From positions 1-27,499 of the IMG/VR virus record IMGVR_UViG_3300045902_000279: a DNA stretch of 27,499 nucleotides. The stretch is one strand, 5' to 3'. Positions 1-27,372 of this stretch are shown piece after piece. Numbering within the stretch: position 1 is the stretch's first letter; each line of letters opens with the position of its first letter. Both the position numbers and the translations under genes were made by a program. The DNA is from a virus. The notes beneath the pieces are model-generated. The model did not search any database. It saw only the letters and a list, made by a program, of their open reading frames with translations, and was not told the origin of the DNA.

Positions 1-1
1 A

Positions 2-919: not shown

Positions 920-925
920 TTCGGA

Positions 926-1519
926 ATGGAAAAGAAGAAATTTAAACACAACAAAGTCCCTGTTGACTTATTACAGCACTGCTTCGAGCAAAAGGCTGTG
1001 CACGGGGACTTAAAGGTGTTTTTGGGGACGGACTCAATCTTTATAGAAGGAAAGATACACTACTTCACAGTGGTAGCCTTTAGGTATGGTAAGAGCGGTG
1101 TCCATTTCATATATACCAAGGAGACGATTAACTCGATAAGAAAAGAGTCTGGTAAGCCCGACATTTTCACCAGACTGTGGAAGGAATGCGAACTGTCAAT
1201 GGCTTTAGCCCGTTTCTTTGTAGAAAAGGGAGTCTTTGATATTAAAGACATTATCATAGAAATAGACTACAACAACGTTGTAGAAACTATTTCTAAGCAG
1301 TTAATACCCGCTACAAAAGGGTGGGCAACAGGGGCAGGGTTCAAGTGTTTGGCCAAAATACCGCACAACCACAACAAGCCGGTAAGAACTTTATTGGAAG
1401 ACATGGTATGTATCGGCAACCCCGAACTTGACATCAACGGGAGGCCGTTACATCCTGAAGACTGGACAGATGTTCAGATTGCTTGTAAAGCGGCAAACCA
1501 CCTGTGTAAAGGTGTTTGA
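926..1519 (+). CDS. YkuK-like RNase H-fold protein (DUF458 type)
   Basis: The 197-residue product has the layout of the YkuK/DUF458 family of predicted RNase H-like nucleases. Seen in the sequence: the strand motif KVFLGTDS with an acidic residue near position 36; a long beta-sheet reading TVVAFRYGKSGVHFIY; a helix with LWKECELSMALARFF carrying E87 and E89; and a strand ending IIIEIDYNN with D114. Together these could form the carboxylate set of an RNase H fold. Length agrees with stand-alone family members. The substrate is unknown; a nucleic-acid processing role is inferred from the fold only. It lies in an operon of small proteins and its TGA is followed one base later by the next ATG. Confidence is moderate for the family and low for activity. 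Confidence 0.65.
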   Translation: MEKKKFKHNKVPVDLLQHCFEQKAVHGDLKVFLGTDSIFIEGKIHYFTVVAFRYGKSGVHFIYTKETINSIRKESGKPDIFTRLWKECELSMALARFFVEKGVFDIKDIIIEIDYNNVVETISKQLIPATKGWATGAGFKCLAKIPHNHNKPVRTLLEDMVCIGNPELDINGRPLHPEDWTDVQIACKAANHLCKGV

Positions 1520-1520
1520 T

Positions 1521-1757
1521 ATGTGCTTACTAAAAGCCATACTAATATCTGCATATTTATCCTCAGTAGTAATTTCCCTGCTCTTAACTTTATTCGCCTA
1601 TTACCACATAAAAGATAACAAAACTATGAAAGTTATGGACATGGATATTCGCATTAAATATCCAGCACTAATAATTACTGTTCTGATTATCCTATCGCTT
1701 GTCCCAGTGCTCAACACAATTGTTTCTAACAAACTGGTTCGAAAAATATTAATTTAA
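1521..1757 (+). CDS. Small two-helix membrane protein, hypothetical
   Basis: Starting at the ATG at 1521, one base after the previous stop, the protein is 78 residues. It has two strongly hydrophobic helices (about residues 4-28, ILISAYLSSVVISLLLTLFA, and 48-66, ALIITVLIILSLVPVLN) joined by a basic loop (HIKDNKTMKV). The lengths are right for two membrane spans. Its stop overlaps the next start as TAATG, so coupling is likely. An upstream in-frame ATG at 1428 would overlap the RNase H-like gene by 92 bases and is rejected. In a lysis-adjacent region a holin-like role is conceivable, but nothing proves it. Confidence 0.55.
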   Translation: MCLLKAILISAYLSSVVISLLLTLFAYYHIKDNKTMKVMDMDIRIKYPALIITVLIILSLVPVLNTIVSNKLVRKILI

Positions 1758-2443
1758 TGAAATATAAAATATTAACATCCCAGTACATGCAGATTGCTGG
1801 GGCACATAGACTGCCGTTAAAAGTATATAAAATAATCGCTCTAAAATCTTTCGATGTACTTATAAAAGGTTCTCAAAAGAACAACTATGTTGACAGAGTA
1901 GTAACCGTAAAAGAGGGAGAAATAGGCGGCTATATTCAATCTCAGTCAAATCTTCCACAGGAAGATAATAGCTGGGTATTTAACACTGCCTGTGTGTTTG
2001 AGAATGCAACCCTTGATAATTCAGCAGTACTTGACAATGCCAAAGTGTGTGACAATTCTAAAGTATCCTGCTCTACAATAAGAGGCAGGACAAGAGTATT
2101 TGGGGCATCTATTGTTGTCAATACATTTACAGATGACAATGTAGATATATCAGGAGGATCACAAGTATCAGACTCCTACCTGTATAACGCTGCGAGGGTA
2201 GACGGAAAGTCTAAAGTAGAAAAATCAAAAATGTTTGTAGGCTCAAGGGTTAATAAATATTCTCACATAATTAACTGTGAGTTGACCGATCAAGCAGAAG
2301 TCACAGATGGCGCAGTATGCACTAACTGCAACTACTCAGGGCAAACATTTGTAAAAGGAGGAACTCACTCTAACGAAACTATAAAGCAAGAAGTGCAACT
2401 CGATGTTGTATCAGTAGCAGATCCAAACCGTAAAGACTTTTAA
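1757..2443 (+). CDS. Beta-helix (hexapeptide-like repeat) protein
   Basis: About residues 60-200 of this 228-residue protein are a series of short hydrophobic/small-residue repeats (NATLDNSAVLDNAKVCDNSKV, then SCSTI, RVFGAS, SQVSDS, AEVTDGAV). This is the pattern of a left-handed beta-helix seen in hexapeptide-type and YdcK-like proteins. The segment just before the repeats (EGEIGGYIQSQSNLPQ) resembles the capping region of related phage and Bacteroidota proteins. There is no acyltransferase catalytic motif, so a structural or binding role is more likely than an enzymatic one. It could be a virion decoration or fibre-like protein. It starts at a TAATG overlap with the upstream membrane protein. 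Confidence 0.6.
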   Translation: MKYKILTSQYMQIAGAHRLPLKVYKIIALKSFDVLIKGSQKNNYVDRVVTVKEGEIGGYIQSQSNLPQEDNSWVFNTACVFENATLDNSAVLDNAKVCDNSKVSCSTIRGRTRVFGASIVVNTFTDDNVDISGGSQVSDSYLYNAARVDGKSKVEKSKMFVGSRVNKYSHIINCELTDQAEVTDGAVCTNCNYSGQTFVKGGTHSNETIKQEVQLDVVSVADPNRKDF

Positions 2444-2454
2444 AAAACAATAAA

Positions 2455-2520
2455 ATGGCAAAAATAAAAAGACCGAGCGGCCTATTAGGGCTATGGTGGT
2501 TCATCAGAGGGTATAAGTAG
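2455..2520 (+). CDS. Micro-protein of 21 aa, possibly a leader peptide
   Basis: An ATG at 2455 opens MAKIKRPSGLLGLWWFIRGYK and ends with TAG at 2518-2520. The last G of that stop is the first base of the GTG start of the next gene (TAGTG). This one-base overlap makes it a plausible coupling leader or a real micro-protein with a basic N-terminus and a short aromatic hydrophobic core. No function can be assigned. It could also be chance. Confidence 0.35.
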   Translation: MAKIKRPSGLLGLWWFIRGYK

Positions 2521-3017
2521 TGTCTTGGAGCTTGTTCAAAACAAAGTGTATGGTATTGACAGGTCAGCAGCACATATCAGTGCCACAGTTTGCCCAGACT
2601 ATTTCTGATGCCTACCATCAGGCTGTATCCTTACACTTCGATACCATGACCGCTGGCGGGCGCATTGTAAACAATGCACCTAAATTTCCTATACTATACC
2701 AGCAAATCCTTGCTCAGTGCAACGCAAACCTTGCTTCACATAGCGAGGTACATTTGTTGAATCAAATAGGCCCGTTCATACTCTCGTATTGGACGGGATT
2801 AATCATTACTGGCCCTACGGGAGTCGTTACTATACTGAGTCCCGGAAATTGGGTAGGGGTTCCAGTAGTCCAAAATATGGACTTTAACATCATGCTTAAT
2901 ACCATGATAACTTGTTTTAGGACACATATTATGACTGTTACAGGTCAATATGTATCAAGTGTAGTTCCGGGGGTAACTTCTCCTTGGAGCGGAGCGCTTC
3001 TACAAGCGCTTCCTTAA
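2520..3017 (+). CDS. Hypothetical protein, 165 aa, GTG start
   Basis: The frame starts at a GTG that overlaps the upstream micro-ORF stop. The product has an N-terminal helical part (VPQFAQTISDAYHQAVSLH) and a central part with two Gly/Pro/Thr-rich stretches (LIITGPTGVVTILSPGNWVGV). It ends PGVTSPWSGALLQALP, rich in small residues. No catalytic motif or signal peptide is visible, and the moderate hydrophobicity does not form a clear membrane helix. The composition suits a small virion or accessory structural protein, but I do not recognise the family. It is the last gene before the promoter-like spacer at 3018-3054. Confidence 0.55.
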   Translation: MSWSLFKTKCMVLTGQQHISVPQFAQTISDAYHQAVSLHFDTMTAGGRIVNNAPKFPILYQQILAQCNANLASHSEVHLLNQIGPFILSYWTGLIITGPTGVVTILSPGNWVGVPVVQNMDFNIMLNTMITCFRTHIMTVTGQYVSSVVPGVTSPWSGALLQALP

Positions 3018-3032
3018 ATTTTTATCAATATT

Positions 3033-3048
3033 TATAAATAAAAGGAGG
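3033..3048 (+). promoter_or_regulatory. T4-like late promoter box plus strong Shine-Dalgarno
   Basis: The spacer between the stop at 3017 and the ATG at 3055 contains an exact TATAAATA (3033-3040), the T4 late-promoter consensus. It is followed directly by AAGGAGG (3042-3048). A gp55-like late sigma is encoded at 8951-9709, which makes the box meaningful. If it is a promoter, transcription would begin about 10-14 bases after it, close to the ribosome site, which leaves a very short leader. An AT-rich chance match remains possible. Confidence 0.4.
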
Positions 3049-3054
3049 TTTAAA

Positions 3055-3732
3055 ATGAAACTAAAAAACATTTATAAAGAAATAATAACAGAAAGAATTG
3101 GGGTTGTAAATGAGGCTAGTTTGTCAAGGCTATTAAGTATGGCAAGCAAAAGAGACTTTTGCGTAGCCACGGGTTTTAGATCCGGAAACGATCTAAAAAC
3201 AAACAGACAATTAAATAGAGAACTTAACGCTGCCCTCGCATCAAAAAAAATGGGCGGGTACTCTTTAATAGGGCACTGGCAAGAAGCACCTGATGGGGTA
3301 GAATATAAAGACGCTGACCCCGAAACTTTGCAAGATTCTGTTGAAGAATCTGTATTGTTTATAAGGCCAGAAAGTATGCAAAGGAAAGAATTTGTAGATC
3401 TATGTGTATCCATTGCTCGAAAGTTTAACCAAGATGCTGTTGTATTAGGTCTTGTAGACAACGAGGCTAAATTTAACAGCAAAGGATTCACACTTAACAA
3501 AGAAGTAAGAGAAGATGGTACAGACTTTCCAGAATCTGGCATATATCTTCTGTTCAAAGATGGAAGTATGGACAAGATAGGGAATAGCCTTACATTAGGC
3601 AAGATATCGCAAGCGTACTCCCAAATGAAAAACAAGAAAAATGTCCCATTTGTTTTCGAGGGTGTCCTCCAACCTACGAACAACATAGGCAAACAGGCGT
3701 TCAAATCAAGAAACATAAAATACCTTATATAA
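3055..3732 (+). CDS. DUF3293-like phage protein, function unknown
   Basis: The 225-residue product begins MKLKNIYKEIITE, an N-terminal pattern that recurs in this phage (compare MKLKTILESIY at 14952). A central segment (about residues 38-75: ATGFRSGNDLKTNRQLNREL, then GGYSLIGHW) follows the pattern of DUF3293-type domains: alternating strand, N-rich turn, helix and a GY strand. The remainder continues as alpha/beta (ESVLFIRPES, DAVVLGLVDNEAKF). There is no known catalytic set. The start is fixed by a near-perfect AAGGAGG six bases upstream. It directly precedes the endolysin by 10 bases. The family call is tentative. Confidence 0.55.
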   Translation: MKLKNIYKEIITERIGVVNEASLSRLLSMASKRDFCVATGFRSGNDLKTNRQLNRELNAALASKKMGGYSLIGHWQEAPDGVEYKDADPETLQDSVEESVLFIRPESMQRKEFVDLCVSIARKFNQDAVVLGLVDNEAKFNSKGFTLNKEVREDGTDFPESGIYLLFKDGSMDKIGNSLTLGKISQAYSQMKNKKNVPFVFEGVLQPTNNIGKQAFKSRNIKYLI

Positions 3733-3742
3733 GGATAGATGA

Positions 3743-4681
3743 ATGACAGTATCAGAAATAAAAAAAATACAAAAAGAATTAAATATCCCGCTAACAGGAA
3801 AGTATGACTCTTTTACAGAAGCCGCTGTAAAGAACTTTCAGCAAAAGAACAAACTTCCTGCGACTGGCATATTTGACAACTCCACAAAAGAGTTGCTTTT
3901 AAAGGACAGTACGGAAGGTTTATTAACTACTGATCTAAGCGAAAACAAACACATAATAAACAGATACCTGCTCAAACCAGAAGAATACTACACAACAAAC
4001 GAGAATAAAGAATGGCTGTTCCTACATCATACGGCAGGATGGAACAATCCTTTTGCTGTAGTGGATGCTTGGGAGGCAGACACAAGAGGGAAGATAGGAA
4101 CAGAATACATTGTTGGGGGAAGGCACATACAAACGCTGGACGCAAAATATGATGGACAGATTGTACAATGCTTTCCCAGCCACAAGAACTATGCTTGGCA
4201 TTTGGGAATAGGGAACACAAAGGTTCACAGGGCGAGCATAGGCATAGAGGTGTGTAATTTTGGATGGTTAGTTAAGGACGGAAACGACTTTAAGACATAC
4301 ATAAGCCTTGATAACACAGGAAAGATAGTTAAAGGAAGGGGGCCAATTGTGAACCCAAGTGAAGTTTGTGATTTGGGCAAAGAGTTTCGAGGTTTTAGGT
4401 ATTACCACAAGTACACAGACGCACAATTATCTTCCCTTAAATATTTGATAACAAAGATTGCAAACGAGACAGGTATAGACATTACCAAGGGACTAAAAGA
4501 AAGGATAAGGAGATCCACCGATCCTTTTGCTGCTTTTGACTTTGACCCAAACGTGGTGGCCGGGAAGGTAAAGGGGCTTTATTGCCATACTAATGTATCG
4601 GCAAGAAATAAATACGGAGGCTTTGATAAATGGGACATCACACCACAACAAGGTGTAATAGATATGATACTATCTCTATGA
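3743..4681 (+). CDS. Endolysin: peptidoglycan-binding domain plus N-acetylmuramoyl-L-alanine amidase
   Basis: The N-terminal 55 residues form a PG_binding_1 module (EIKKIQKELNIPLTGKYD, AVKNFQQKNKLPATGIFD). From about residue 88 an Amidase_2/PGRP domain follows. Visible motifs are LHHTAGW with H95/H96, TEYIVGGRHI, YAWHLG with H153, SIGIEV, and near the C-terminus CHTNVSARNKYGGFDKWD with H282 and D298. These fit zinc ligands and the active-site region of the family (first His, last His, Asp/Cys). The enzyme would cleave the amide bond between MurNAc and L-Ala for host lysis. There is no signal peptide, so export would need a holin or other route. The order (binding domain first) is reversed compared with many endolysins but is known. 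Confidence 0.92.
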   Translation: MTVSEIKKIQKELNIPLTGKYDSFTEAAVKNFQQKNKLPATGIFDNSTKELLLKDSTEGLLTTDLSENKHIINRYLLKPEEYYTTNENKEWLFLHHTAGWNNPFAVVDAWEADTRGKIGTEYIVGGRHIQTLDAKYDGQIVQCFPSHKNYAWHLGIGNTKVHRASIGIEVCNFGWLVKDGNDFKTYISLDNTGKIVKGRGPIVNPSEVCDLGKEFRGFRYYHKYTDAQLSSLKYLITKIANETGIDITKGLKERIRRSTDPFAAFDFDPNVVAGKVKGLYCHTNVSARNKYGGFDKWDITPQQGVIDMILSL

Positions 4682-4720
4682 AAGAAAAATGAAAATAAAT
4701 AAATTAATAAAAGACCAAAA

Positions 4721-5443
4721 ATGAGATTAGAAGACTTGCTTGAAAAAGAAAATATTAAAAAAGACTTAATAGGTGATGTGAATGATTTTGGTGATGAAGA
4801 GGTAAAAATGTCCAAAGAACATGCTTATAAAGAAGTCATTGACGATAAAATTGATAGTAATACAAATTTTGTTATCCCCGATTATCTGATTAATGATCCG
4901 GAGGTGGTGGGTTACCCTGACCTTGAAATGCAGAAGGGGCTTTATGAATGGGTACTGAGAGACCTTCCTGTAAGCGGCTATTCTATAAAAGACATTGGAG
5001 CAGGGAGAGGGGATTTTTATGGATATATGAACGAGCAGGCTATTAAAGCAAGCCCGTCACCCAGATACACAGGTTTTGAAACTAAAGATAGTTTAGTAGC
5101 TGCCGGGCGAAGAAAGTACGAAAATATAGAACTTGTACAATCTGATTTCTTAGATTCAGACCTCGTTACAGACTATACTATTTGCATCGGAACCTTGAAT
5201 GAGTCACATGGAAATGATAAGTGGGAATACTTTAACAAAACTTTAAAACACTGCCTTGACACAACAAAAGTAGCCATAATATTCGTTTTGTCAGCCGATA
5301 TGGGCGGCTTTGACGGGTTTTTAGACTACCCGCTTACAGAAATAATATCACACATTCCTAAAGGTCTTAGGTTTAATATTGATTATACTAAATTTGAAGA
5401 TATTTACAAATTGACCGTCCATATCGGCGGGTATAATGACTAA
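4721..5443 (+). CDS. Class I SAM-dependent methyltransferase
   Basis: About 85 N-terminal residues are acidic and poorly structured. A Rossmann-type methyltransferase core follows: motif I IKDIGAGRGDF (residues 89-99), motif II strand YTGFE ending in E120, VQSDFLDSD with D142 as the motif III acidic residue, and strand TICIGTLNESHGND. The motif IV type (D/N-P-P-Y/F) of DNA adenine methyltransferases is absent, so the substrate is not indicated to be DNA; a small molecule or protein is equally possible. The ATG at 4721 overlaps the stop of an 11-codon frame as ATGA. It lies between the endolysin and a short hypothetical gene, in the transcription unit that ends at the terminator at 5733. Confidence 0.78.
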   Translation: MRLEDLLEKENIKKDLIGDVNDFGDEEVKMSKEHAYKEVIDDKIDSNTNFVIPDYLINDPEVVGYPDLEMQKGLYEWVLRDLPVSGYSIKDIGAGRGDFYGYMNEQAIKASPSPRYTGFETKDSLVAAGRRKYENIELVQSDFLDSDLVTDYTICIGTLNESHGNDKWEYFNKTLKHCLDTTKVAIIFVLSADMGGFDGFLDYPLTEIISHIPKGLRFNIDYTKFEDIYKLTVHIGGYND

Positions 5444-5454
5444 ACTTATATTAT

Positions 5455-5709
5455 ATGAGCGTAAACCAACGACATGCAATTGATCAAAAAAAAGTGCAAA
5501 AATTCGGCAAACACTTTGGGTCTATTGACTTTGAAGTAGGCCCAATCTCACATGCAGTACTTGAACTAAATCGTCAAGACACTAAGGCAGGAAAGTTCCT
5601 AATTGGAGGAAAGGAGTTTGACTGCACTTTGGCAGAGCTAGACAGGATCATCGAAACTTGCCAAACTGCAAAAGAAGTATTCTTTCAGAAATACCGTTTA
5701 GGACTTTAA
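5455..5709 (+). CDS. Hypothetical protein, 84 aa
   Basis: A short soluble protein with a basic first quarter (NQRHAIDQKKVQKFGKHFG), a central beta segment (GKFLIGGKEFDCTLAELDRI) and a C-terminal helix. No family recognised. It is 11 bases downstream of the methyltransferase and is the last gene before the terminator at 5733-5772, so it closes this transcription unit. Confidence 0.6.
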   Translation: MSVNQRHAIDQKKVQKFGKHFGSIDFEVGPISHAVLELNRQDTKAGKFLIGGKEFDCTLAELDRIIETCQTAKEVFFQKYRLGL

Positions 5710-5732
5710 GTACAGAAAGAAAATAATGGCCA

Positions 5733-5772
5733 AGAAAAGTCATCTACATCAAATAATGTGGGTGACTTTTCT
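5733..5772 (+). terminator. Rho-independent-type terminator hairpin
   Basis: A 12-bp stem (AGAAAAGTCATC 5733-5744 with GGTGACTTTTCT 5761-5772, one G-U pair) is extended inside by ACAT/ATGT around a six-base loop. The downstream sequence is U-rich (CTTTTATGG, then GTTTTTT at about 5794). It lies just after the stop at 5709 and before the promoter at 5845, which is where a terminator is expected. Confidence 0.65.
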
Positions 5773-5844
5773 GCTTTTATGGCTTTAAAATAGCGTTTTT
5801 TAAATCTTTAACACATCGTTAACTCATTTTTTCTTGCTTACCTC

Positions 5845-5875
5845 TTGCACATGTCAAAAATTTCTCGTAACTTTG
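5845..5875 (+). promoter_or_regulatory. Bacteroidota-type host sigma promoter
   Basis: TTG at 5845-5847 and TAACTTTG at 5868-5875 are separated by 20 bases. This matches the established -33 TTTG / -7 TAnnTTTG promoter of Bacteroides-type primary sigma factors (here CTTG at the -33). The predicted start is near 5882. It sits in a 329-base gene-free spacer between a terminator and the 6039 gene. It is the best single piece of host evidence in the window and suggests early or constitutive transcription by host polymerase. Confidence 0.65.
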
Positions 5876-5918
5876 CACTATAATTAATATAATTATAAAA
5901 ATATTTTTTAATAAAAAC

Positions 5919-5974
5919 GGGAGAAATTTTTAATTTCTCCCCATTCAAAGCAGGTACTGCTTGAATGTGTTTTG
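5919..5974 (+). ncRNA. Two tandem strong hairpins: leader RNA, attenuator or small RNA
   Basis: Hairpin one is a perfect 9-bp stem, GGGAGAAAT (5919-5927) with ATTTCTCCC (5933-5941). Hairpin two starts one base later: CATTCAAAGCAG (5942-5953) with CTGCTTGAATG (5957-5967), 11 pairs with one bulged A and a three-base loop. It is followed by TGTTTTG. RNA started at about 5882 would carry both. The U-rich tail after the second hairpin could end a ~90-nt small RNA, or the pair could regulate the 6039 gene. No known RNA family was recognised. Confidence 0.45.
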
Positions 5975-6038
5975 TAACTAAGAAAAACAGTTATTAACTT
6001 ATTATATTTAAATAATAATAGTTAATAATGACATAACT

Positions 6039-7175
6039 ATGTCAATGACCAATTTGACCAGATTTTTCCCTTATATTATTGCTGGATCTGCGTTACTTGT
6101 TTCAGTAATTGGATCATATTATTCAATTTCTGGGATAGGTAGAATCTTTGCCGGGCACCAAGTGGGAGCCACTTTTATGGCGTTTGCCCTTGAACTTGGC
6201 AATATTGTCACAGCATCTGCTTTAAAATTATACTGGCACGATCTTCCAAAGCTGTTGAGGAACTATCTTTGTTCCGCAGTTGTGGTTCTTTCCATTATAA
6301 CCTCCATCGGTATCTATGGATTTTTGTCGGACGGTTATCAGTTAACAAACAACAAAGATAAGATAGTCCAAGCAAGAATGGACTTAGTTAAGAAGAAGAA
6401 AGAAAGGTTTGAGATTCAACTTGCCGACTTAAAAAAAGAAAAAGAAGAAGTGAACGCTTCTATTTCAAATCTAAGAAAATCACTATCTACTGACAATCAA
6501 TACCAGACTGTTGACAAGAAGGGAAATGTCCTTACCCAAATTCAGGCAACTCAAAAGAAAGGAGTTCAAGCAGAACTAAATATATCCACGTCAAAAAGCA
6601 ATGATCTTTCTTTAAAGATAGATAGGCTAAATGATTCGATATCTGCCTATGATGTTAAGATTATCGAGATTCAGGCCAGTAACGACGTTTCTTCTGAGCT
6701 TGGGGCGTTGAAGTACATATCGAACATTACGGGTTCCAGCATGGATGTTGTAGTCAACTGGTTCCTGATATTGATTATGATTGTTTTCCAGCCTCTTGCC
6801 ATAGCGCTTATTTTAGCGGCTCTCTTTGCATTTTCAAAGAAATTCAAAGACAAGGAAGAATTAATACCAGTAGATTCGCCGTCAATTCCAGATGCTCCTG
6901 CAATTGATACGAAGCAAAGGGCAAAGAGGAAGTACAAATCAAAAAGGAATAAAGAAATTGATGATTCTGAAATAGACTCCGCAAAAACTTTCAATATTAA
7001 AATTGAAGGTTTAGAACCGGGAGAGGAATTGTTTCCAAACAGCACAACCGACACAGTAGCAGAGAAAGACCCTCCGACAGATAAAAAGGTCAGAAAGAGA
7101 AGGGTTGTAGAGACCGGTCTCCCTGAAGATTTGGCCACGCATTTATCAGAAAGTTTAAGTAAAAAAAAAGACTAA
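6039..7175 (+). CDS. Membrane protein with a large coiled-coil loop
   Basis: The 378-residue product has three predicted N-terminal membrane helices (about residues 11-33, 40-64 and 76-97). A charged coiled coil of about 100 residues follows (KKKKERFEIQLADLKKEKEE and on to IDRLNDSISAYDVK). A fourth helix is at 239-265 (WFLILIMIVFQPLAIALILA). The C-terminal tail of ~110 residues is hydrophilic, rich in Lys and Asp/Glu. The architecture suggests an inner-membrane protein with a long helical domain on one side. Proteins of this layout occur in large T4-like phages, but I know no function. The start follows the promoter and leader hairpins; an alternative ATG two codons on is equally possible. 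Confidence 0.7.
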   Translation: MSMTNLTRFFPYIIAGSALLVSVIGSYYSISGIGRIFAGHQVGATFMAFALELGNIVTASALKLYWHDLPKLLRNYLCSAVVVLSIITSIGIYGFLSDGYQLTNNKDKIVQARMDLVKKKKERFEIQLADLKKEKEEVNASISNLRKSLSTDNQYQTVDKKGNVLTQIQATQKKGVQAELNISTSKSNDLSLKIDRLNDSISAYDVKIIEIQASNDVSSELGALKYISNITGSSMDVVVNWFLILIMIVFQPLAIALILAALFAFSKKFKDKEELIPVDSPSIPDAPAIDTKQRAKRKYKSKRNKEIDDSEIDSAKTFNIKIEGLEPGEELFPNSTTDTVAEKDPPTDKKVRKRRVVETGLPEDLATHLSESLSKKKD

Positions 7176-7235
7176 GTGAACCACAAATAAAAATGATGTC
7201 CCACCAAGAAATACAGGCATGGGAGAAGAAGCATA

Positions 7236-7772
7236 ATGGAGAACTTTAAAAAATTCAGCTTATACGAAGATACAAATAGAAAAATATTTTCCAAGTTCAT
7301 TGCCCCAGACCAATTAGAAGAGAGGGTGCTTGATATAAACATTTCAGAACCTGAGACGTTGTACAGCATGTCATCTAAAGTAAGAGAATTTTTAAAGGAT
7401 AAACCAGAAGACTACGAACTCACGTTATATTTAGTCTGTGGCAACATACCGTCAAAAGACGCAGGTTTGTTCGCAGAATACTTAAAAGATTTAACACAGC
7501 CAATCGTAGTCGTTTTTAGAGGTATTGTGCACTTTGATTTCATCCATCTTTTCTTGGATAACTTGGTTTACTTAAACACAAGCAGTCAAATACAATACTC
7601 GAAGATAAAATTACACGACACAATGAAGAACCTGCTCACAAAACCTGACACATATAAGAAGTTTGTGCAGAGGTTTGTTGACGAGTATTGGAAATTAAAC
7701 GAAGGGAACATGCTTCCTATATCAGAACTTGAGGCGCTTGGGATAAAAACAGAACCTTTGCAAAAAAATTAA
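7236..7772 (+). CDS. ClpP/crotonase-fold protein lacking the ClpP serine motif
   Basis: Residues 37-125 align by eye with the core of ClpP-type serine peptidases. SEPETLYSMSSKVREFLKDK corresponds to the first helix, YELTLYLVCGNIPSKDAG to the strand and turn that read LYINSPGG in ClpP, and QPIVVVFRGIVHFDFIHLFL to the strand and helix that carry the catalytic Ser. DNLVYLNTSSQIQYSKIKLHD corresponds to the segment holding the usual His. The family motif G-x-A-x-S-M/A is replaced by GIVHFDF and there is no Ser at that place. It may therefore be an inactive paralogue with an assembly or binding role. The phage context (between a membrane protein and an HD enzyme) does not settle it. The fold is inferred from pattern only. 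Confidence 0.5.
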   Translation: MENFKKFSLYEDTNRKIFSKFIAPDQLEERVLDINISEPETLYSMSSKVREFLKDKPEDYELTLYLVCGNIPSKDAGLFAEYLKDLTQPIVVVFRGIVHFDFIHLFLDNLVYLNTSSQIQYSKIKLHDTMKNLLTKPDTYKKFVQRFVDEYWKLNEGNMLPISELEALGIKTEPLQKN

Positions 7773-7793
7773 AAATAAATATAATAAAAAATA

Positions 7794-8591
7794 ATGGCCG
7801 AGTTTTACTTAACCGACAAACAGATTCAAGCAAACTGGAAAACCTTCAGAGAGATAGTCAATGAAATTTCTCCACGAAGGAAGGACGCGATGAACAGAAT
7901 GTACGACGAACTTGATGAAAGGGTTGCGATGGCACCTGCTTCAAGTTATGAGTACTTCCACAACGCCATACCGGGCGGATACGTGGATCACGTGTTAAGG
8001 GTTTACAATAACGCCCTTAAACAATATGAACTATGGAAGAGTTCCGGTATGATAGTTGACAATTTTACATTAGAAGAACTGTCTTTCGCGGCAATCCATC
8101 ACGATATTGGAAAGTGCGGTATGCCCGGAGAAAATGGATGTCTATATCAGACAAACAAAAGCGAGTGGCACAGAAAAAACCAAGGCAAGATGTATCAAAC
8201 AAATCCCGACCTTATGTTCATGGATCACGCTGACAGGGGATTCTATTTGTTAAATTACTACGGAATTCAATATTCAGCCAACGAGATGCTGGGGATGAAA
8301 CTTGCGGATGGGATGTATTCTGATCACAATAAGCCTTATTTAGTATCATACGATCTCGATAAGAAATTAAGGAATAATATAGGCTTGATACTTCATCACG
8401 CTGACTTAATGGCAGCAAGGTTCGAGTTTGAGAGGTGGGCAACTACTTCCGAAAAGTTTCAGTTGTATGACAATAAAGTTCATAAGCAACCAGCACAAGA
8501 ACCTGCTGTAGGTGGCGGAAGCGCAGCGAATAAAAAACATCTTGATATTTTTGCTAAGGTATTTGCAGAGATGGAAAAAGAAAAGGGTTAG
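7794..8591 (+). CDS. HD-domain metal-dependent phosphohydrolase
   Basis: The 265-residue protein contains a full HD set: GGYVDHVLRV with H66, AAIHHDIGK with H103-D104, a further MDHADRGF with H145, and LILHHADLMAARFEF with H201/H202 and D204. The PGGYVDH start of the domain resembles YhaM-type HD proteins. Substrates in this superfamily include nucleotides, cyclic nucleotides and RNA 3' ends, and the sequence alone does not choose. The N-terminal 45 residues are helical. The tail after residue 235 is low-complexity (Gln/Ala/Gly rich). It ends with TAG two bases before the ATG of the next gene. Confidence 0.82.
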   Translation: MAEFYLTDKQIQANWKTFREIVNEISPRRKDAMNRMYDELDERVAMAPASSYEYFHNAIPGGYVDHVLRVYNNALKQYELWKSSGMIVDNFTLEELSFAAIHHDIGKCGMPGENGCLYQTNKSEWHRKNQGKMYQTNPDLMFMDHADRGFYLLNYYGIQYSANEMLGMKLADGMYSDHNKPYLVSYDLDKKLRNNIGLILHHADLMAARFEFERWATTSEKFQLYDNKVHKQPAQEPAVGGGSAANKKHLDIFAKVFAEMEKEKG

Positions 8592-8593
8592 AA

Positions 8594-8946
8594 TGGTAAT
8601 TATTTTATCAATAGTAACTTTTGTCCTTATTGCTTTGCTAATAGTAGCATTTATAGCGATAAGAAACCTTTTGAGTCAGAACGACACTTTGTTGGAAAAT
8701 TTGCAGATTTACAGTAACAAGATTGAGCAAATAGAGGATGAGACTATAAAATACCACAAGTACTTCCTTGAATTATTTACACAAACTTACCAAGAGCTTC
8801 AAAGAGTCAACAAAAGGGGGAGTTTTAGCAGTGACGATGAGGTTGGATTTGCTTTTAGAGTGATCCTTTCGGCAATAGAAACGGCGAAGAACAAACTTTT
8901 AGCAATAGAAACAGAAGAGGAGGTATACCCTGAAAAAAAAACCTAA
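8594..8946 (+). CDS. Small single-pass membrane protein with coiled coil
   Basis: From the ATG at 8594 the protein is 117 residues. It begins with a hydrophobic helix (MVIILSIVTFVLIALLIVAF, about residues 1-24), followed by heptad-like coiled coil (LLENLQIYSNKIEQIEDETI) and an acidic tail. An in-frame ATG at 8512 would overlap the HD gene by 80 bases and place a polar stretch before the membrane helix, so the later start is chosen. It lies directly upstream of the late sigma gene (four bases between stop and start). Function unknown. Confidence 0.62.
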
Positions 8947-8950
8947 CGAA

Positions 8951-9709
8951 ATGTATTTCGGAAAGCACGTAGAAGAGGCGATTATAGAGTATAATACATC
9001 TGATAATCCAAAGCAAAAAGAAATAATATTTACCAAAAGGATTTACCCAGCACTACACAAATTGGCGGAAAATCAAATACACGCCAAGAAGTTTAACGAT
9101 TACGGGTATAGCACCTACGATGAGAAACTACATGAATGTGTGGTACACCTTCATTCAAGGTTAGAGAAGTACGATCTCACTAAAGGGAGTGCTTTTTCCT
9201 ACTTTAATAGGATATCTATAAACTGGGTATGGGCGGAGATGAAGAAAGTAAAAGAAGATAGACAGTTTAAGGGAGACATAGAAGAGATAGACATGAGGAG
9301 AAATGTCTTAAATGAAATATCTAACGAGATTCATCTCGAAGATTTAGAGGACTTTTGTTCTAAGTGGTCTGCGTGGGGCATATCACACTTAGACCATTTG
9401 TTTTTGACAAAAAGGGATAAACGAATAGGAGAGGCAGTCTTTAACTTGTTTAAAAACGTAAAAAGTCTTGATATTTATAACAAGAAGGCTTTGTACATAA
9501 TGGTGAGAGAACAGGTTGACGTAAAAACCCAATATATTACAGATGTCATAAAAATTATGAAGCCCTTGCAAAGAGCAATGTATGCCGATTATCAAAAAAA
9601 TGGAACATGTAATTGGAATAAGTTTCTCTTACATTTTCCAGAAGAAGAGGAAATAGATGAAATCCATAATGAAATCGAAGAAGAGTTCAAGTCCCTTATT
9701 TACGCTTGA
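8951..9709 (+). CDS. T4 gp55-like late-transcription sigma factor
   Basis: The region from about residue 30 to 108 resembles sigma region 2 as found in the short phage late sigma factors. Seen are RIYPALHKLAENQIHAKKF, a helix with DEKLHECVVHLHSRLEKYD, then KGSAFSYFNRISINWVWAEMK followed by a basic stretch (KKVKEDRQFKG). This follows the layout of T4 gp55, in which the L-x-x-F/Y-D and A-F/Y-x-Y-x-x-x-x motifs precede a polymerase-binding/-10 recognition helix. At 252 residues it is longer than gp55 (185). It would redirect host RNA polymerase to TATAAATA-type late promoters, of which candidates lie at 3033 and 25082. The last 53 bases overlap the next gene. Confidence 0.72.
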   Translation: MYFGKHVEEAIIEYNTSDNPKQKEIIFTKRIYPALHKLAENQIHAKKFNDYGYSTYDEKLHECVVHLHSRLEKYDLTKGSAFSYFNRISINWVWAEMKKVKEDRQFKGDIEEIDMRRNVLNEISNEIHLEDLEDFCSKWSAWGISHLDHLFLTKRDKRIGEAVFNLFKNVKSLDIYNKKALYIMVREQVDVKTQYITDVIKIMKPLQRAMYADYQKNGTCNWNKFLLHFPEEEEIDEIHNEIEEEFKSLIYA

Positions 9710-10052
9710 CAATGGTGATGAAGTAAGGTTTGAGGACTTGTTGAAGAAAATATACACAAACTCTGAGGAGAAGAACCAAAACATAACTGCCACAGCCCAG
9801 CGAATAATGGCTTTGACCAAGACGCTAAACGATATGGTAGTTATGATGCCTATACTCGTTGACATGCAAAAGGCTGCTATTGCCAACGACGATATGCTCG
9901 TTAAGATGGCTGCCATTGTACAGAGAAGTCAAAACGCAAAATCAAAGGACGCCGGTCTCGATAACACTCTTATCACCGAAGAAGAACGTAAAATATTGAT
10001 GGACGCTGTAAGAGAATCCAAGAATATTCCGGGCAGTTCGTCAGAAGGATAG
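9657..10052 (+). CDS. Helical protein of unknown function beside the late sigma
   Basis: The 131-residue protein has a short basic N-terminus (MKSIMKSKKSSS) and a long helical middle rich in Met, Ala, Ile and Asn (ATAQRIMALTKTLNDMVVMM), suggesting an oligomeric helical bundle. It overlaps the sigma gene by 53 bases; an internal ATG at 9669 would shorten this to 41. Its place next to a gp55-like gene invites comparison with the late co-activator gp33, but no sequence motif supports this. It ends at TAG at 10050-10052. Confidence 0.6.
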   Translation: MKSIMKSKKSSSPLFTLDNGDEVRFEDLLKKIYTNSEEKNQNITATAQRIMALTKTLNDMVVMMPILVDMQKAAIANDDMLVKMAAIVQRSQNAKSKDAGLDNTLITEEERKILMDAVRESKNIPGSSSEG

Positions 10053-10081
10053 TTAAAATGGAAAAGAAACACAATTGATTT

Positions 10082-10160
10082 TATTTTTGCATGAGTGTTT
10101 ACTTCCGAAGCCCAGCCCATCGGATCTGCCGTGGCTGGGCAGCTCACATAATGGTCGGCA
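10082..10160 (+). other. GC-rich structured island (possible small RNA or 5' leader element)
   Basis: A stretch far more GC-rich than its surroundings carries an 8-bp perfect stem GCCCAGCC (10110-10117) / GGCTGGGC (10133-10140). Inside it a CGG/CCG (10121-10123, 10129-10131) stacks on a five-base loop, and a TGAG/CTCA outer pair is possible. TATTTTTG at 10082-10089 fits the host -7 box, but no good -33 lies upstream. It is not followed by a T-run, so it is not a standard terminator. A 25-codon frame (10092-10169) covers it. The gene-free stretch runs from 10053 to 10251; beyond this island it is AT-rich and shows nothing else. Confidence 0.45.
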
Positions 10161-10251
10161 TGTTTTAGCATATAAAAAGCACCAAGAATGTTAAAAATAC
10201 AATAACCTCAAGAATATATCCCAATATTTTTTAGGAACGGAGGGGATTTTA

Positions 10252-11277
10252 ATGATTGCAGCCGAAGTGGTTGAAACTAAGTATGCCTTTAAACCAAATC
10301 AAAAAGACCCAGACACGGGAGATACGCTTCCACTTGGGTCTATACAAGTTCGCATTGGTTCGCACGAATCGAACATCGGTCAAGTTCGTAACCTGTTTTG
10401 TCGGCCAGCGGTGTTTAATCGTCGAATCCCTAATATTGGAGAAATAGTATATTTAATATCTGCGCCTACGAACGACTTTAGTACTTCTAAAGTCAAAAAT
10501 TCAGGATTTTTATATTTTAGCCCGCTAAACACTACTGATGACATTGTTTCCCATCAGTTTCCGAGACTATGGAAGAGAAAATCATCAACTTCTAACGGAG
10601 GAGCTGAGAGGAAGAGCGACAAAGAAGAGCCGGGCTATACTTTTCCAAAGAATCCTGCGCCTTTGGACAGGTTACAGCCTTTTGAAGGGGATGATTTATT
10701 TGAAGGAAGGTTCGGCCATTCTATACGTTTTGGATCAACCGTCCAAGGGGACGACAGTGTTTATTCAAAAAAACCGACATGGAAGGGTACTAAGAACGGA
10801 GACCCTATAACAATCATTAGAGTTGCTAAACCTACTGGTGATGGGAAGAAGTACAATATTGAGGATATTGGAAAGGATGAGTCGAGTATTTACTTGACAT
10901 CTGCCCAAAGCCTCAGCAAGCTGAAAGGCGGTTTTGACAAGAATACGGACGTAAAACAACTTGGACAGAAGTCAATAGCACAGATTGTAGCCAACTCCAA
11001 GAGAGTAGTTATAAATGCTTATGATGATACCTTATTTTTAATTGGAAAGGAAAAAGCGATACTTACAGGAAAGAAGGTGTTGTTTCAGAGCGATAAATAC
11101 AAGGTTGATCTCGATGAATTGATGGACTTCTTAAAGAAATGGCTTGGAGAGGACGCAAAGTTAGCACAAGGTTCTGCACAATACTCAACAGCAGCTGGGC
11201 CAACAGCAACCTCAACAAACGTATCTTCCTATATTCAGTTACAGTCTTCCGACTTCACAAAGTTTAAAATGCCATAA
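10252..11277 (+). CDS. gp5-type baseplate hub protein with OB-fold domain
   Basis: The 341-residue protein shows an N-terminal OB-like domain (about residues 28-72: LGSIQVRIGSHESN, then RRIPNIGEIVYLISAP) as in T4 gp5 and Vgr-type spike proteins. It also carries the conserved motif FEGDDLFEGRFGHSIRFGS at residues 144-162, which is typical of the gp5-type hub proteins of marine and Bacteroidota T4-like phages. No lysozyme domain is present, unlike T4 gp5. The C-terminal part has beta-rich turns (RVVINAYDDTLFLIGKEKAILTG) that could form the start of a spike. A GGAGGGG at 10239-10245 fixes the start. It heads the baseplate module followed by gp25 and gp6. Confidence 0.72.
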   Translation: MIAAEVVETKYAFKPNQKDPDTGDTLPLGSIQVRIGSHESNIGQVRNLFCRPAVFNRRIPNIGEIVYLISAPTNDFSTSKVKNSGFLYFSPLNTTDDIVSHQFPRLWKRKSSTSNGGAERKSDKEEPGYTFPKNPAPLDRLQPFEGDDLFEGRFGHSIRFGSTVQGDDSVYSKKPTWKGTKNGDPITIIRVAKPTGDGKKYNIEDIGKDESSIYLTSAQSLSKLKGGFDKNTDVKQLGQKSIAQIVANSKRVVINAYDDTLFLIGKEKAILTGKKVLFQSDKYKVDLDELMDFLKKWLGEDAKLAQGSAQYSTAAGPTATSTNVSSYIQLQSSDFTKFKMP

Positions 11278-11364
11278 TGTTGTGTAGTTGTTAAATTCAA
11301 TCAGCCGAAATCGCCGGAAAGACGTCCAAGATAGTAAATAGAAGAATAAAATGAGGATAGGTCT

Positions 11365-11967
11365 ATGACACAGAAAGAAGCCAATATACTCGTGGAAATT
11401 ATTACAAAAGTAGTTAGAAAAGAACTTGGAACGTTCAGAAAACAATTGCTCCAAGAAGGTTATTCACCACAACCAGTCAGAAAACAAGTTGCCACCCAGC
11501 CAGCCGACAGGTTAACTGAGGTGCATAAGAATTTTAGGAATACAGTGAGGTTGAACAATGCTCCTAAGAAGAACATGAGTAAAAACCCTTTACTAAATTC
11601 AATTTTACAAGAGACTATTTCAATAGAAGAGGCTGAAAGACAGGCAGACGAAATGGCAATACTTGAGAGTGTAAATCTCCCAGTAGACATCAATGGAAGG
11701 TTAATATCAAGTAATGCAAACGTAGATCATGTACTTGAAGCAATGAACAGGGATTACTCTGGAATGTTTGCCCAAAAGGGAAAATCAACGCCCGCATCAG
11801 TAGCCGCAAAAAATCAACTTAGAAACGACTTCCTTGCAGCAATTGAAGACGATTTCCTTATAAATGATGCACAGAAAAGAAACCGAACGGAACAGTCCAC
11901 ATACCCAAGCGTTGAACCTTTTTCAAAAGACGAGGAAGATTTAGACTGGTTAAATTATGTATCTTAA
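11365..11967 (+). CDS. Hypothetical protein between hub and gp25 genes
   Basis: The 200-residue protein is mostly polar. It has an amphipathic N-terminal helix (ANILVEIITKVVRKELGTFR), a linker rich in Gln/Pro (SPQPVRKQVATQPADR), a helical centre with an acidic patch (ISIEEAERQADEMAILE) and a C-terminal acidic tail (SKDEEDLDWLNYVS). There is no membrane segment. A moderate ribosome site (GAGGATAGG) lies upstream of the ATG. Its position suggests a baseplate-related structural or assembly role, but no family is recognised. Confidence 0.55.
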   Translation: MTQKEANILVEIITKVVRKELGTFRKQLLQEGYSPQPVRKQVATQPADRLTEVHKNFRNTVRLNNAPKKNMSKNPLLNSILQETISIEEAERQADEMAILESVNLPVDINGRLISSNANVDHVLEAMNRDYSGMFAQKGKSTPASVAAKNQLRNDFLAAIEDDFLINDAQKRNRTEQSTYPSVEPFSKDEEDLDWLNYVS

Positions 11968-12045
11968 TTACAAACGTACTTAATGAAACTTTTTAATATA
12001 AAAAAGTATTACTATGATTAAAAATTTATATGACGGAGCGTAAAA

Positions 12046-12068
12046 CCCACAGGTCTTTATCCTGTGGG
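12046..12068 (+). repeat. Left-end hairpin of the IS605-type element
   Basis: CCCACAGG (12046-12053) pairs perfectly with CCTGTGGG (12061-12068) around loop TCTTTAT. The second copy at 27393-27416 keeps the outer CCCAC/GTGGG pairing but has different inner pairs (CCCACCC/GGGTGGG), so structure is kept while sequence changed. Such subterminal hairpins are what Y1 TnpA recognises. Confidence 0.7.
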
Positions 12069-12078
12069 ATGTAAGCGA

Positions 12079-12123
12079 CTAACCCTGATTGAGGATATAC
12101 TCACGAATAGTATCAGGACTTGC
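12079..12123 (-). pseudogene. tnpA: C-terminal remnant of IS200/IS605 TnpA (Y1 transposase)
   Basis: Read on the minus strand the codons give ASPDTIREYILNQG and a TAG stop (plus-strand CTA at 12079-12081). This is the typical last helix of TnpA (S-x-E/D-T-I-x-x-Y-I-x-x-Q). The second copy at the window end reads EASPETIRQYILSQS in the same place. The catalytic Tyr and HUH motif lie in the deleted part, so no active transposase is made here. Confidence 0.65.
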
Positions 12124-12300
12124 AAGAATGGACACGTTTTAGACCGTGACCTTAATGCTGCAAAGAATATTCTAAAAGAAGGATTAAAAATAATATTGTC
12201 AGGAACTGGCGATTACACGGGTGGAGACACAAATAAGACTTCTGTAAAGAAGCGCAAGTCTGTGAAACCCGAAGCCCATTTGTCTTTAGCAAATGGGTAG
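12121..12300 (+). pseudogene. tnpB: C-terminal remnant of TnpB (RuvC-III and end)
   Basis: The codons from 12121 read CKNGHVLDRDLNAAKNILKE and end SVKPEAHLSLANG with TAG at 12298-12300. This is the second half of the TnpB zinc finger followed by the RuvC-III motif D-R-D-x-N-A-A-x-N-I, then the usual Lys-rich tail. About 60 of the ~350-400 codons of a full TnpB remain, so nuclease activity is lost. An open frame that starts at 12064 is an artefact in which the first 19 codons are antisense to tnpA. The 3' end of tnpB and the right end normally also encode the guide (omega) RNA scaffold. Confidence 0.68.
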
Positions 12301-12321
12301 TTCACTAGATGGGGCGAACTA
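12275..12321 (+). repeat. Right-end hairpins of the IS605-type element
   Basis: First hairpin: CCCATTTG (12275-12282) with CAAATGGG (12290-12297), loop TCTTTAG, nearly the same loop as the left-end hairpin. Second hairpin: TAGTTC (12298-12303) with GAACTA (12316-12321), 12-base loop; the stop codon of tnpB forms its first bases. The pair resembles the right end and the 3' scaffold stem-loop region of TnpB-associated guide RNA. Confidence 0.6.
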
Positions 12322-12336
12322 TGAGGATAATAAAAT

Positions 12337-12801
12337 ATGCTATTAAAATATTACCCAGAAGATGATTCTAATAATACTATTGGCATACTTTTGCCTATGA
12401 ATGGCCGTTCTGATCGTGCATCAGACGGCTTTTTTGCTATGTCAAGGACTACCGAAGAACAGGCTATCTCAAACTACATAAACCTCTTATTAACTAAGAG
12501 GGGAGAAAGGTACATGCAACCGGAGTTTGGGATAGGAATACAGTTCTATCTCTTTGAGCAAAACGTCGAATCTCTCAGACTTGAACTTGAATCAGAGATT
12601 TACCGTCAAGCAAGATTTTGGCTGCCTTACATAATAAACCACAACATTGATGTAAAGCCTAAAGCGGATATTCCCGGATTGAACGGCGACCCAGAGAACG
12701 CACTTCAAATTGTAATAACCTTTTCCGTCACCGAGGCAGGGGCAAATAGAACCATAGCCCTTTTTCAGAAAGAGGGCAGGATAAGTTACAATATAACATG
12801 A
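12337..12801 (+). CDS. gp25-like baseplate wedge protein
   Basis: The 154-residue protein carries the GPW/gp25 signature: a helix with EEQAISNYINLLLTKRGERY (residues 40-59) followed by MQPEFGIGIQFYLFEQN (60-76), then a beta-rich C-terminal half (ALQIVITFSVTEAGANRTI). T4 gp25 is a wedge component that nucleates sheath contraction and binds gp6. The next recognised wedge gene is gp6, as in T4-like clusters. The ATG at 12337 lies about 10 bases from the right end of the IS605-type element, so its upstream region may have been rearranged by that insertion. The stop overlaps the next ATG as ATGA. Confidence 0.92.
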   Translation: MLLKYYPEDDSNNTIGILLPMNGRSDRASDGFFAMSRTTEEQAISNYINLLLTKRGERYMQPEFGIGIQFYLFEQNVESLRLELESEIYRQARFWLPYIINHNIDVKPKADIPGLNGDPENALQIVITFSVTEAGANRTIALFQKEGRISYNIT

Positions 12802-13085
12802 CGAAAATAAAGGCTACCTTACTTGGAATTCCACAACAAAGGTTTGTGCCACAAAAATATTTTCATACCTCTGTCAAAAAGCCTAAGATCGAATACATTG
12901 AACTGTACAGTTTTGATTTTGAATGCGATATGACTTTTGAGGAGGTACGAGAGTACAAGTATAAGTACCTTCCCCAACCAAAGTTCAGAAAAAAAATAGA
13001 AGAAATGTTCAACTTGAAAATTCCGATATTTATAAGGAAATTAGTATGGAAATTGGAGGACGTAAGCAATGGCTATGCTAAATAG
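12798..13085 (+). CDS. Hypothetical protein, 95 aa, between gp25 and gp6
   Basis: A small basic/aromatic-rich protein (IPQQRFVPQKYFHTSVKKPK, then FEEVREYKYKYLPQPKFRKK) with several conserved-looking Tyr and Pro. It overlaps gp25 by four bases (ATGA) and the gp6 gene by 17 bases, so all three are probably translated in a chain. No membrane segment or catalytic motif. Its position suggests a small baseplate wedge or assembly component. Family not recognised. Confidence 0.6.
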   Translation: MTKIKATLLGIPQQRFVPQKYFHTSVKKPKIEYIELYSFDFECDMTFEEVREYKYKYLPQPKFRKKIEEMFNLKIPIFIRKLVWKLEDVSNGYAK

Positions 13086-14955
13086 CAGGTACAAACGTAA
13101 CATAAGTTATGTAAATAAAGATTTTGCGGAATTTAGGATTGCGTTGATAAATCACGCAAAACAATACTTTCCAAACACAGTAAACGACTTTAATGAAGCA
13201 TCTCCCGGAACAATGATGATAGAGATGGCAAGCTATGTAGGAGATGTGCTTGCATTCTTTGCGGATGTAAGCCTTCAAGAGTCGTTACTTTCTAATGTTG
13301 AGGAGAGGATCAACCTTTACAATTTGTCTCAAGGCATGGGGTATAAGGCTAAGACAGTTGTTCCTGCATCTGTTGACCTTGACATATTTCAACTGATACC
13401 ATCAGTAGGATCTGGCACAAACACTAGACCTGACTTTAGATATGCCTTGTACGTTAAGGAAAACATGCAAGTGTCTACTTCGGATAAAGATGCCGTTCCA
13501 TTCTACACTAAAGATGCCGTAGACTTTAGATTCAGTTCGAGTTACGATCCAACTACTATAACGGTATATTCCGTTACAGGTGACGGCGCTATTGAATACT
13601 ACTTGTTGAAGAAAAAGGTTAGAGCCGTTAGCGGTCAGATAAGAACCAAGACATTTCAGTTCTCAGAACCAAAGATATACGATAAAATAGTACTTCCTGA
13701 AAACAACGTAACTGAGGTTATAAAGGTCACAGATAGTGACAACAATGTGTGGTATGAAGTGCCTTACTTGTCTCAAGACTTGGTTCCTATTTCTGTAAGA
13801 AACGTTCCGTATAACGATCCTAAATTAAGCAAGTACAGAAGTTCTGTCCCTTACATACTTTCTTACAAGCAGACCGAGAGAAGGTTCATAACAAGACTTA
13901 GAAAAGACGATCGCTTAGAGATTCAGTTTGGCTCTGGCTTGAGCAGTGAAGCAGACGAAGAGATTGTCCCGAATCCTATGAATGTAGGGCTTGGGCTTAA
14001 CTATTTTGAGAGGGTTGCAGATGTGAGCATAGACCCTATGAACTTCCTCTACACACGCACCTATGGCAGCGCGCCAGCAAACACAGTGCTCACTGTTCAA
14101 TATGCCACTGCAACAGGGGTTTCAGATAATGTATCGTCTAACCTAATCACGGAAATTATATCAAGCGAAATAATTGACCCAGTTGATACTACCGACCCCA
14201 CAGTATTGAACACCATTAGAGATTCCCTTTCAATTAACAACCCTTATCCAGCATTTGGCGGACAGAATAGGAAACCGCTTGAATCAATAAGACAAGAGGC
14301 TATGGCCAACTTTGCTGCACAGAACCGAGCAGTGACCAAGGAAGATTATATACTTAGATGCTTGTCCATGCCAGCAAAATATGGGGGTATCGCTAAAGCG
14401 TATGTAGAACAAGACTTTCAGTTAGGGCAGTGGAATGAGGAGAGGACACCAAACCCTTTTGCGCTGAACCTTTACATACTTGCTTCTGACTCCCTTGGAA
14501 ACCCTATACCGGCAAACGAAGCGATTAAAGAGAATTTGCGTCAATATTTGCGCCAATATAGAATGATGACAGATGCCATAAACATAAAAGACCCTTTCTT
14601 AATTGATTTGGGAATAAATGTTGATGTAATTGTCCGACCAAACGAGAACAGCAACGAGGTTCTCCTAAAGTGCAGCGAAAAGTTGATAGAACTGTTCAAA
14701 CCAGAAAAGTTACAGATTAACCAGCCGATACTGCTATCTTCCATCAGGAATGAACTTGACAAGATAGACGGGGTTCAGTCAGTACAGAGGATAGATTTTG
14801 TTAACAAGGTCAACATGAACGAGGGGTATGCTGGAAATCAATATGATGTTAAGGCAGCGATAAGAGGTGATGTTTTATACCCAAGTCTTGATCCATGCCT
14901 GTTTAGAGTACCTTACCCAAAACGTGACATTTTGATAAGAGCGGTAGAAATATGA
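13069..14955 (+). CDS. gp6-like baseplate wedge protein (Baseplate_J type)
   Basis: The 628-residue protein begins with the conserved N-terminal region of gp6/Baseplate_J proteins: YVNKDFAEFRIALINHAKQY, then ASPGTMMIEMASYVGDVLAF and ERINLYNLSQGMGYKAK. The middle domain (about residues 100-330) is beta-rich. A C-terminal region (from about residue 400) with LESIRQEAMANFAAQNRAVTK and EDYILRCLSMP matches the J-type core seen in wedge proteins that form the dimer ring of T4 baseplates. Length is close to T4 gp6 (660). It is the central wedge gene between gp25 and the following virion genes. The last bases overlap the next ATG (ATGA). Confidence 0.9.
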   Translation: MAMLNSRYKRNISYVNKDFAEFRIALINHAKQYFPNTVNDFNEASPGTMMIEMASYVGDVLAFFADVSLQESLLSNVEERINLYNLSQGMGYKAKTVVPASVDLDIFQLIPSVGSGTNTRPDFRYALYVKENMQVSTSDKDAVPFYTKDAVDFRFSSSYDPTTITVYSVTGDGAIEYYLLKKKVRAVSGQIRTKTFQFSEPKIYDKIVLPENNVTEVIKVTDSDNNVWYEVPYLSQDLVPISVRNVPYNDPKLSKYRSSVPYILSYKQTERRFITRLRKDDRLEIQFGSGLSSEADEEIVPNPMNVGLGLNYFERVADVSIDPMNFLYTRTYGSAPANTVLTVQYATATGVSDNVSSNLITEIISSEIIDPVDTTDPTVLNTIRDSLSINNPYPAFGGQNRKPLESIRQEAMANFAAQNRAVTKEDYILRCLSMPAKYGGIAKAYVEQDFQLGQWNEERTPNPFALNLYILASDSLGNPIPANEAIKENLRQYLRQYRMMTDAINIKDPFLIDLGINVDVIVRPNENSNEVLLKCSEKLIELFKPEKLQINQPILLSSIRNELDKIDGVQSVQRIDFVNKVNMNEGYAGNQYDVKAAIRGDVLYPSLDPCLFRVPYPKRDILIRAVEI

Positions 14956-23812: not shown

Positions 23813-23839
23813 TATTTATGATTAAAAACAAGGAAAAGA

Positions 23840-27341: not shown

Positions 27342-27372
27342 AACTTATTGATAATCAAAGGTTTATGAAAAA

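Follow-up and report, generated by a model that had tools for sequence, protein, structure and literature searches.

Anatomy of the element upstream of the gp25 gene

The window analyzed here, a viral fragment of 27,499 bp taken from IMG/VR, carries a gene for a gp25-like baseplate wedge protein, followed by a small ORF and then a gp6-like baseplate wedge protein whose nearest named relatives come from a Microcystis phage and from Flavobacterium phages. A blastn comparison with named phages gave no match to the window. Immediately before the gp25 gene lies a 276-bp element (Table 1), confirmed to be an internally deleted IS200/IS605 element in which the left end, the tail of tnpA, the tail of tnpB, and the right end are fused. 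It has the hallmarks of this family: (i) subterminal imperfect palindromes at both ends, (ii) a fixed short target, with insertion 3′ of that target and without duplication, and (iii) remnants of a Y1 tnpA and of tnpB. A preliminary description of this DNA had named all of these parts, and its estimates of about 60 tnpB codons on the plus strand and of 1.5 to 2 kb missing between the fused parts agree with the 60 codons and ~1.5 kb found. Its edges (12026-12326) were too wide, the minus-strand tnpA tail is slightly shorter than the 15 or so codons proposed, and the distance to gp25, given as about 10 bases, is 31 bp to the ATG.

The left end reads ATGACGGAGCGTAAAA, and the arms of its hairpin lie at 12047-12054 and 12061-12068. 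At the other end, the hairpin CCCATTTG/CAAATGGG spans 12275-12297 (arms 12275-12282 and 12290-12297), and 68 distinct right ends or remnants in the retrieved loci carry GGGTAGTTCAC. Folded as DNA, the ends of the element gave z-scores of -2.8 to -3.4. TTTAT directly precedes the element here and in most other copies. By analogy with the anatomy of IS608 and ISDra2, GTAAAA may act as the left guide for TnpA, its TAAA being complementary to TTTA of the target, and GTGAA, whose place before the right hairpin matches that in IS608, is the candidate right guide. Reads of tnpA and tnpB match the Y1_Tnp and OrfB_IS605/TNB profiles; the tnpB tail taken alone matched Cas12f1-like_TNB weakly (E=1.8e-4, below the Pfam curated cut-off), and its DNA is 96% identical to the tail of an intact tnpB in a full-length element, L055.

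Table 1. Features of the 276-bp element and its surroundings in the window
Feature	Position	Strand	Basis or remark
TTTAT target site / transposon-adjacent motif (TAM), 5′ of left end	12025-12029	+	Also present in the empty allele L003
Whole non-autonomous IS605 element	12030-12305	+	276 bp; L003 fuses 12029 to 12306
Candidate TnpA left guide GTAAAA	12040-12045	+	Near-invariant run in left-end alignment
Left-end hairpin CCCACAGG-loop-CCTGTGGG	12047-12068	+	Fold, covariation
Last 12 tnpA codons and stop	12079-12117	-	Reads PDTIREYILNQG before the stop, as in full-length TnpA of relatives (L063)
GGA microhomology at deletion junction	12116-12118	+	Comparison with full-length L170
Predicted omega-RNA (reRNA) scaffold, ~190 nt	12116-12305	+	Covariation
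Last 60 tnpB codons and stop, with third RuvC motif DRDLNAAKN	12118-12300	+	PF07282 match
Candidate TnpA right guide GTGAA	12262-12266	+	Near-exact complement of terminal TTCAC
Right-end hairpin and terminal GTAGTTCAC	12275-12305	+	Sequence recurrence, covariation
Predicted guide, 16-20 nt, gp25 leader beside right end	12306-12325	+	Exact 16-nt match after TTTAT in L003/L184
gp25-like baseplate wedge gene	12337-12801	+	PF04965, E=1.3e-9; PHROG baseplate wedge
Left portion of another IS605 element, probably full-length	27377-27499	+	After ATTAT; cut by contig end

Empty and occupied alleles

The site is empty in a near-identical phage. Contig IMGVR_UViG_3300044998_000425 (L003/L184) matches window positions 1-12029 and 12306-14637 with three differences in 14,361 bp, the two flanks being 100% and 99.96% identical, and in it position 12029 is followed at once by 12306, without slip or duplication (AAAAATTTAT/TAGATGGGGCGAAC, the slash marking the point of insertion; in short form, TTTAT/TAGATGGGG). 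From this exact empty allele, the element is 276 bp long, its target is TTTAT, and it ends 31 bp before the gp25 ATG. Of the three differences from G001, one is 62 bp away from the gp25 insertion, and near the second site two differences fall at a distance of about 200 bp; such clustering is suggestive of co-conversion during homing, although the differences are too few for a claim.

The same internal junction (...GTATCAGGACTTGCAAGAATGG...) recurs at four further sites in phage contigs, one on 3300044961_000149 (L050), one on 3300045902_000127 (L051), and two on 3300045902_000325 (L052 and L053). These four copies are 94-96% identical, all follow TTTAT, all end in GTTCAC, and their flanks are unrelated. 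Each of the five copies, window included, is intergenic and oriented with the flanking genes, and a TTTATC loop variant is restricted to the window copy and L051. The five copies thus share an identical junction and the same truncated structure at several sites and have no functional transposase, as is typical of a MITE or PATE. A search of viral contigs with the guides of the L050 and L052 copies revealed no empty alleles.

Other reduced IS605 forms were also encountered. The contig with two of the copies (G005, IMGVR_UViG_3300045902_000325, 39.7 kb) holds six IS605 pieces: one left end, the two 276-bp-type MITEs, and three fragments made up of right end and tnpB tail. Micro-elements of ~50 bp, in which the left-end hairpin is fused straight to the right-end terminus, follow TTTAT at L042:401-452, L043, L045, L047, L048, and L114:112-158; the length of a G-run differs between contigs in the L042 group. 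At the L130 right end (1687, plus strand), the hairpin extends into a long, nearly perfect palindrome, AGTGAACTACCCATTTG...CAAATGGGTAGTTCAC. In the bacterial genome of Sphingobacterium cavernae, two more internally deleted members of this IS family (L178 and L179) have other junctions.

Origin by deletion and relation to full-length elements

Compared with the full-length elements L055 (1766 bp) and L170, about 1.5 kb is missing from the 276-bp element. The break points in L170 are CAGGA on the tnpA side and TGGAC on the tnpB side, fused here as CAGGAC. The element arose by a ~1.5-kb deletion at the 3-bp GGA repeat, which removed nearly all of tnpA and tnpB and spared both ends. An 82% similar version (L071/L072) shares the junction, but its right hairpin differs and is preceded by a small loss; since the junction is shared despite this divergence, the deletion is either old or recurrent.

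The preliminary description had spoken of two copies. A second element is indeed present at 27377, 95% identical to the left end of L055, but it is not the same MITE: its tnpA sequence continues past the MITE junction, and the reading of it as another MITE was rejected. The site (ATTAT target at 27372) is empty in L202 (contig 3300044961_000636; ATTAT/AAGAACGAACC), which is ~99.8-99.9% identical to the window over 8.3 kb. Contig G010 (3300045902_000205) opens inside an element right end followed by AAGAACGAACCAAC, and this matching flank marks it as the far side of an insertion at that very site. G010 belongs to the same phage as L202/L203 (99-100% identity over most of the overlap) and also carries L055, a full 1,766-bp element with uninterrupted TnpA (L055:1476-1877, minus strand; Y1_Tnp, E=2e-32) and TnpB (L055:1990-3183; OrfB_IS605, TNB, and HTH domains), at a site that is empty in 3300044961_000636 (TTTAT/TGCTTTTTCAG). 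Taken together, the empty and occupied alleles at gp25, at 27377, and at L055 make three IS605 sites polymorphic in one phage population, and the intact genes of G010 mean that a source with a MITE-like tail exists in trans. An autonomous relative within the same population is a further MITE/PATE trait, here with a tail 96% identical and a left end only 73% identical to L055, although alike in structure. Because the MITE left end is closer to L103 and L170 (95.7%), L055 may be a helper but not the direct parent.

Full-length relatives in cellular genomes were found by protein search, mostly in Bacteroidota (Sphingobacterium and Algoriphagus); the exact left-end pattern was absent from the cellular genomes searched. 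The window derives from a T4-like phage population, probably with Bacteroidota hosts, and these cellular relatives fit that likely host range. Close relatives in distant lineages (L168, a Patescibacteria MAG, and L181, a Woesearchaeota MAG) reflect either horizontal transfer or the binning of phage or Bacteroidota contigs. At L065, an IS605 left end (646-739) and tnpB (1990-3180) flank an HNH/NUMOD homing-endonuclease-like ORF (1305-1997), which occupies the expected place of tnpA. Elsewhere in the window, a region of ~1.2 kb (23828-25019) is replaced by ~85 bp in the near-identical L202; its ORFs are broken, two of them had no Pfam family, and about six of the ten window-L202 differences cluster at its edges, so that it looks like a decayed homing-type insertion with co-conversion.

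Covariation and a predicted omega-RNA

Pair covariation is strong at both ends of the element. Across 21 elements, 97.8% of left-hairpin cells are paired, with 39 double-change cells against 14.3 after shuffling. The right end together with the tnpB tail (29 sequences, 27 distinct) forms a seven-helix structure in which 95.1% of cells are paired, with 94 double-change cells against 26.7 in shuffles, while slid controls reach 32-44% pairing. The conserved pairing previously noted in the left-end hairpins is thus borne out, and compensatory changes keep the hairpins paired at both ends. The helices of the scaffold include 12196-12212, 12218-12222/12267-12271, 12239-12252 (GTAA loop), and 12275-12297; four of the seven fall within tnpB codons and are separate from the right hairpin used by TnpA, and one has a GTAA or GCAA loop in many sequences.

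This structure is what an omega-RNA (reRNA) would be expected to look like. ISDra2 makes an reRNA of ~150 nt that covers the 3′ end of tnpB and the right end and takes ~16 nt of flanking DNA as its guide (PMC8612924), and the guide length predicted here was taken from that system. A conserved, probably structured RNA spanning the tnpB tail and the right end, with a guide drawn from the flank, agrees with the definition of an OMEGA locus; an Rfam scan of the window gave no family at gathering score. The MITE keeps the whole scaffold stretch, which starts at GGACT, pairing with AGTTC. As an amendment to the preliminary description, the retained tnpB tail may be more than leftover, as it coincides with the covarying scaffold. 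The sequence that the guide would match in the empty allele is TTTAT followed by TAGATGGGGCGAACTATGAG.

Probable movement in trans and possible use of the retained RNA

Very probably, the 276-bp element is a non-autonomous IS605 derivative of the MITE/PATE type that is moved by TnpA in trans and whose predicted omega-RNA could be used by TnpB. Movement in trans by a TnpA is the well-supported part of this reading, and the TnpA encoded in G010 may be the one that acts. The Y1 transposase of a full-length relative in the same phage would recognize both hairpin ends in single-stranded DNA, excise the element in that form, and insert it 3′ of TTTAT. Read-through transcription of the late operon would then yield an omega-RNA with the gp25 leader as its guide, and TnpB from the full-length copy could cut empty alleles next to TTTAT and so favor copying of the element into them, which may help its retention or its spread between co-infecting phages. 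TnpB combined with reRNA supplied from a separate plasmid forms an active complex (PMC8612924). TnpB is also known to process the mRNA that encodes it (PMC10278001), so that it is an assumption that it would work efficiently with an RNA from another source. For plasmids, TnpB-driven spread of an autonomous IS200/605 element into empty replicons has been demonstrated (PMC11870625). It is a tentative and rather less probable extension that a gene-less element with its own guide RNA borrows TnpB to cut sibling phages without it and so behaves as a non-autonomous, RNA-guided gene drive.

The RNA half of this reading, and only that half, competes with an evenly balanced alternative, namely that the element is a pure passenger, an end-only MITE moved by TnpA whose tnpB tail and omega-RNA region are a neutral remnant with no working guide. 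Smaller derivatives that lack the scaffold occur at other sites (L114, L042, and L130), the scaffold core varies among the five copies about as much as the rest, not clearly less, with one helix weakened in L053, and the scaffold may have been inherited rather than selected in the MITE lineage. Against this, the deletion spares the entire covarying scaffold from its first paired bases, and the copies at several sites all keep it, although a search based on the tail favors such copies.

Trans mobilization into an empty gp25 site, as preferred here, also has to be weighed against precise excision, in which the site was ancestrally occupied and the L003 phage lost the element. IS605 excision likewise restores a perfect empty site, and two alleles alone give no polarity; the element is, however, absent from the whole records of the more distant relatives G002, G003, and G004, which makes absence the simpler ancestral state and excision improbable. 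Even less probable is that the insertion was kept for gp25 regulation, through a new leader or altered transcription or translation. Its sense orientation just before gp25, in a gap that measures 93 bp in the empty allele, would suit such a role, but a near-identical phage does without it and the other copies adjoin unrelated genes. That misassembly fused the element ends to the gp25 region is very improbable, for although multi-copy elements do break contigs in this data set (the window end, G005, G007, and G010), this copy is short, has both junctions exactly at known element ends, and carries its own variants such as the TTTATC loop.

The checks that the preliminary description had proposed came out in its favor: an exact empty gp25 site exists in a related phage, more copies with the same junction were found, and full elements of the profile-matched IS605 family are present in the population.

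Comparison with known systems

Trans-acting stand-alone omega-RNAs have been described for IscB, and PATEs have been described alongside TnpB elements. PATEs and other IS200/IS605 MITEs likewise consist of IS605 ends and are thought to be moved by TnpA in trans (PMC7290912). The 276-bp element differs from them in keeping ~190 nt at the tnpB tail, predicted to be a complete omega-RNA scaffold, in residing in a phage, and in having an empty allele known from a near-identical genome. With ISDra2 and IS608, which carry tnpA and tnpB, it shares subterminal hairpins, duplication-free insertion on the 3′ side of a short AT-rich target, the two genes (here as remnants), and an RNA from the right end (PMC8612924), which is predicted here; it differs in its target, TTTAT rather than TTGAT or TTAC, and in having no coding capacity. 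Its closest full-length counterparts are L170 and L169 of Sphingobacterium alimentarium and S. cavernae, with left ends 94-96% identical to the MITE and, like the phage element L055, right parts 90-96% identical. Unlike the MITE, a deletion derivative, these elements are 1.77 kb long with both genes, and the left end of L055 is less similar.

IS605 elements in T4-like phages are not in themselves unusual. According to the available part of one report, ISCaje1-4 of the Campylobacter phages CP220 and CPt10 lie at different places in related genomes; they carry tnpB, one of them also tnpA, and that part describes no MITE (PMC2853527). The plasmid TnpB gene drive (PMC11870625) resembles the arrangement proposed here in that a guide from the insertion site targets empty replicons, but it is autonomous, plasmid-borne, and tested, whereas here the element is gene-less, in phages, and its activity predicted. 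Whereas end-only IS605 derivatives (PMC7290912) and IS605 elements in T4-like phages (PMC2853527) are both known, the twist here is the presence in a phage of gene-less copies that retain an apparently complete guide RNA. The alleles also show that IS605 elements moved recently at three sites of a single phage population, one of them right before a baseplate gene. Near-identical phages that differ by one small IS605 derivative, with candidate helpers, guide, and target all known, form a natural pair in which it can be tested whether non-autonomous elements keep an omega-RNA for retention or drive by TnpB in trans.
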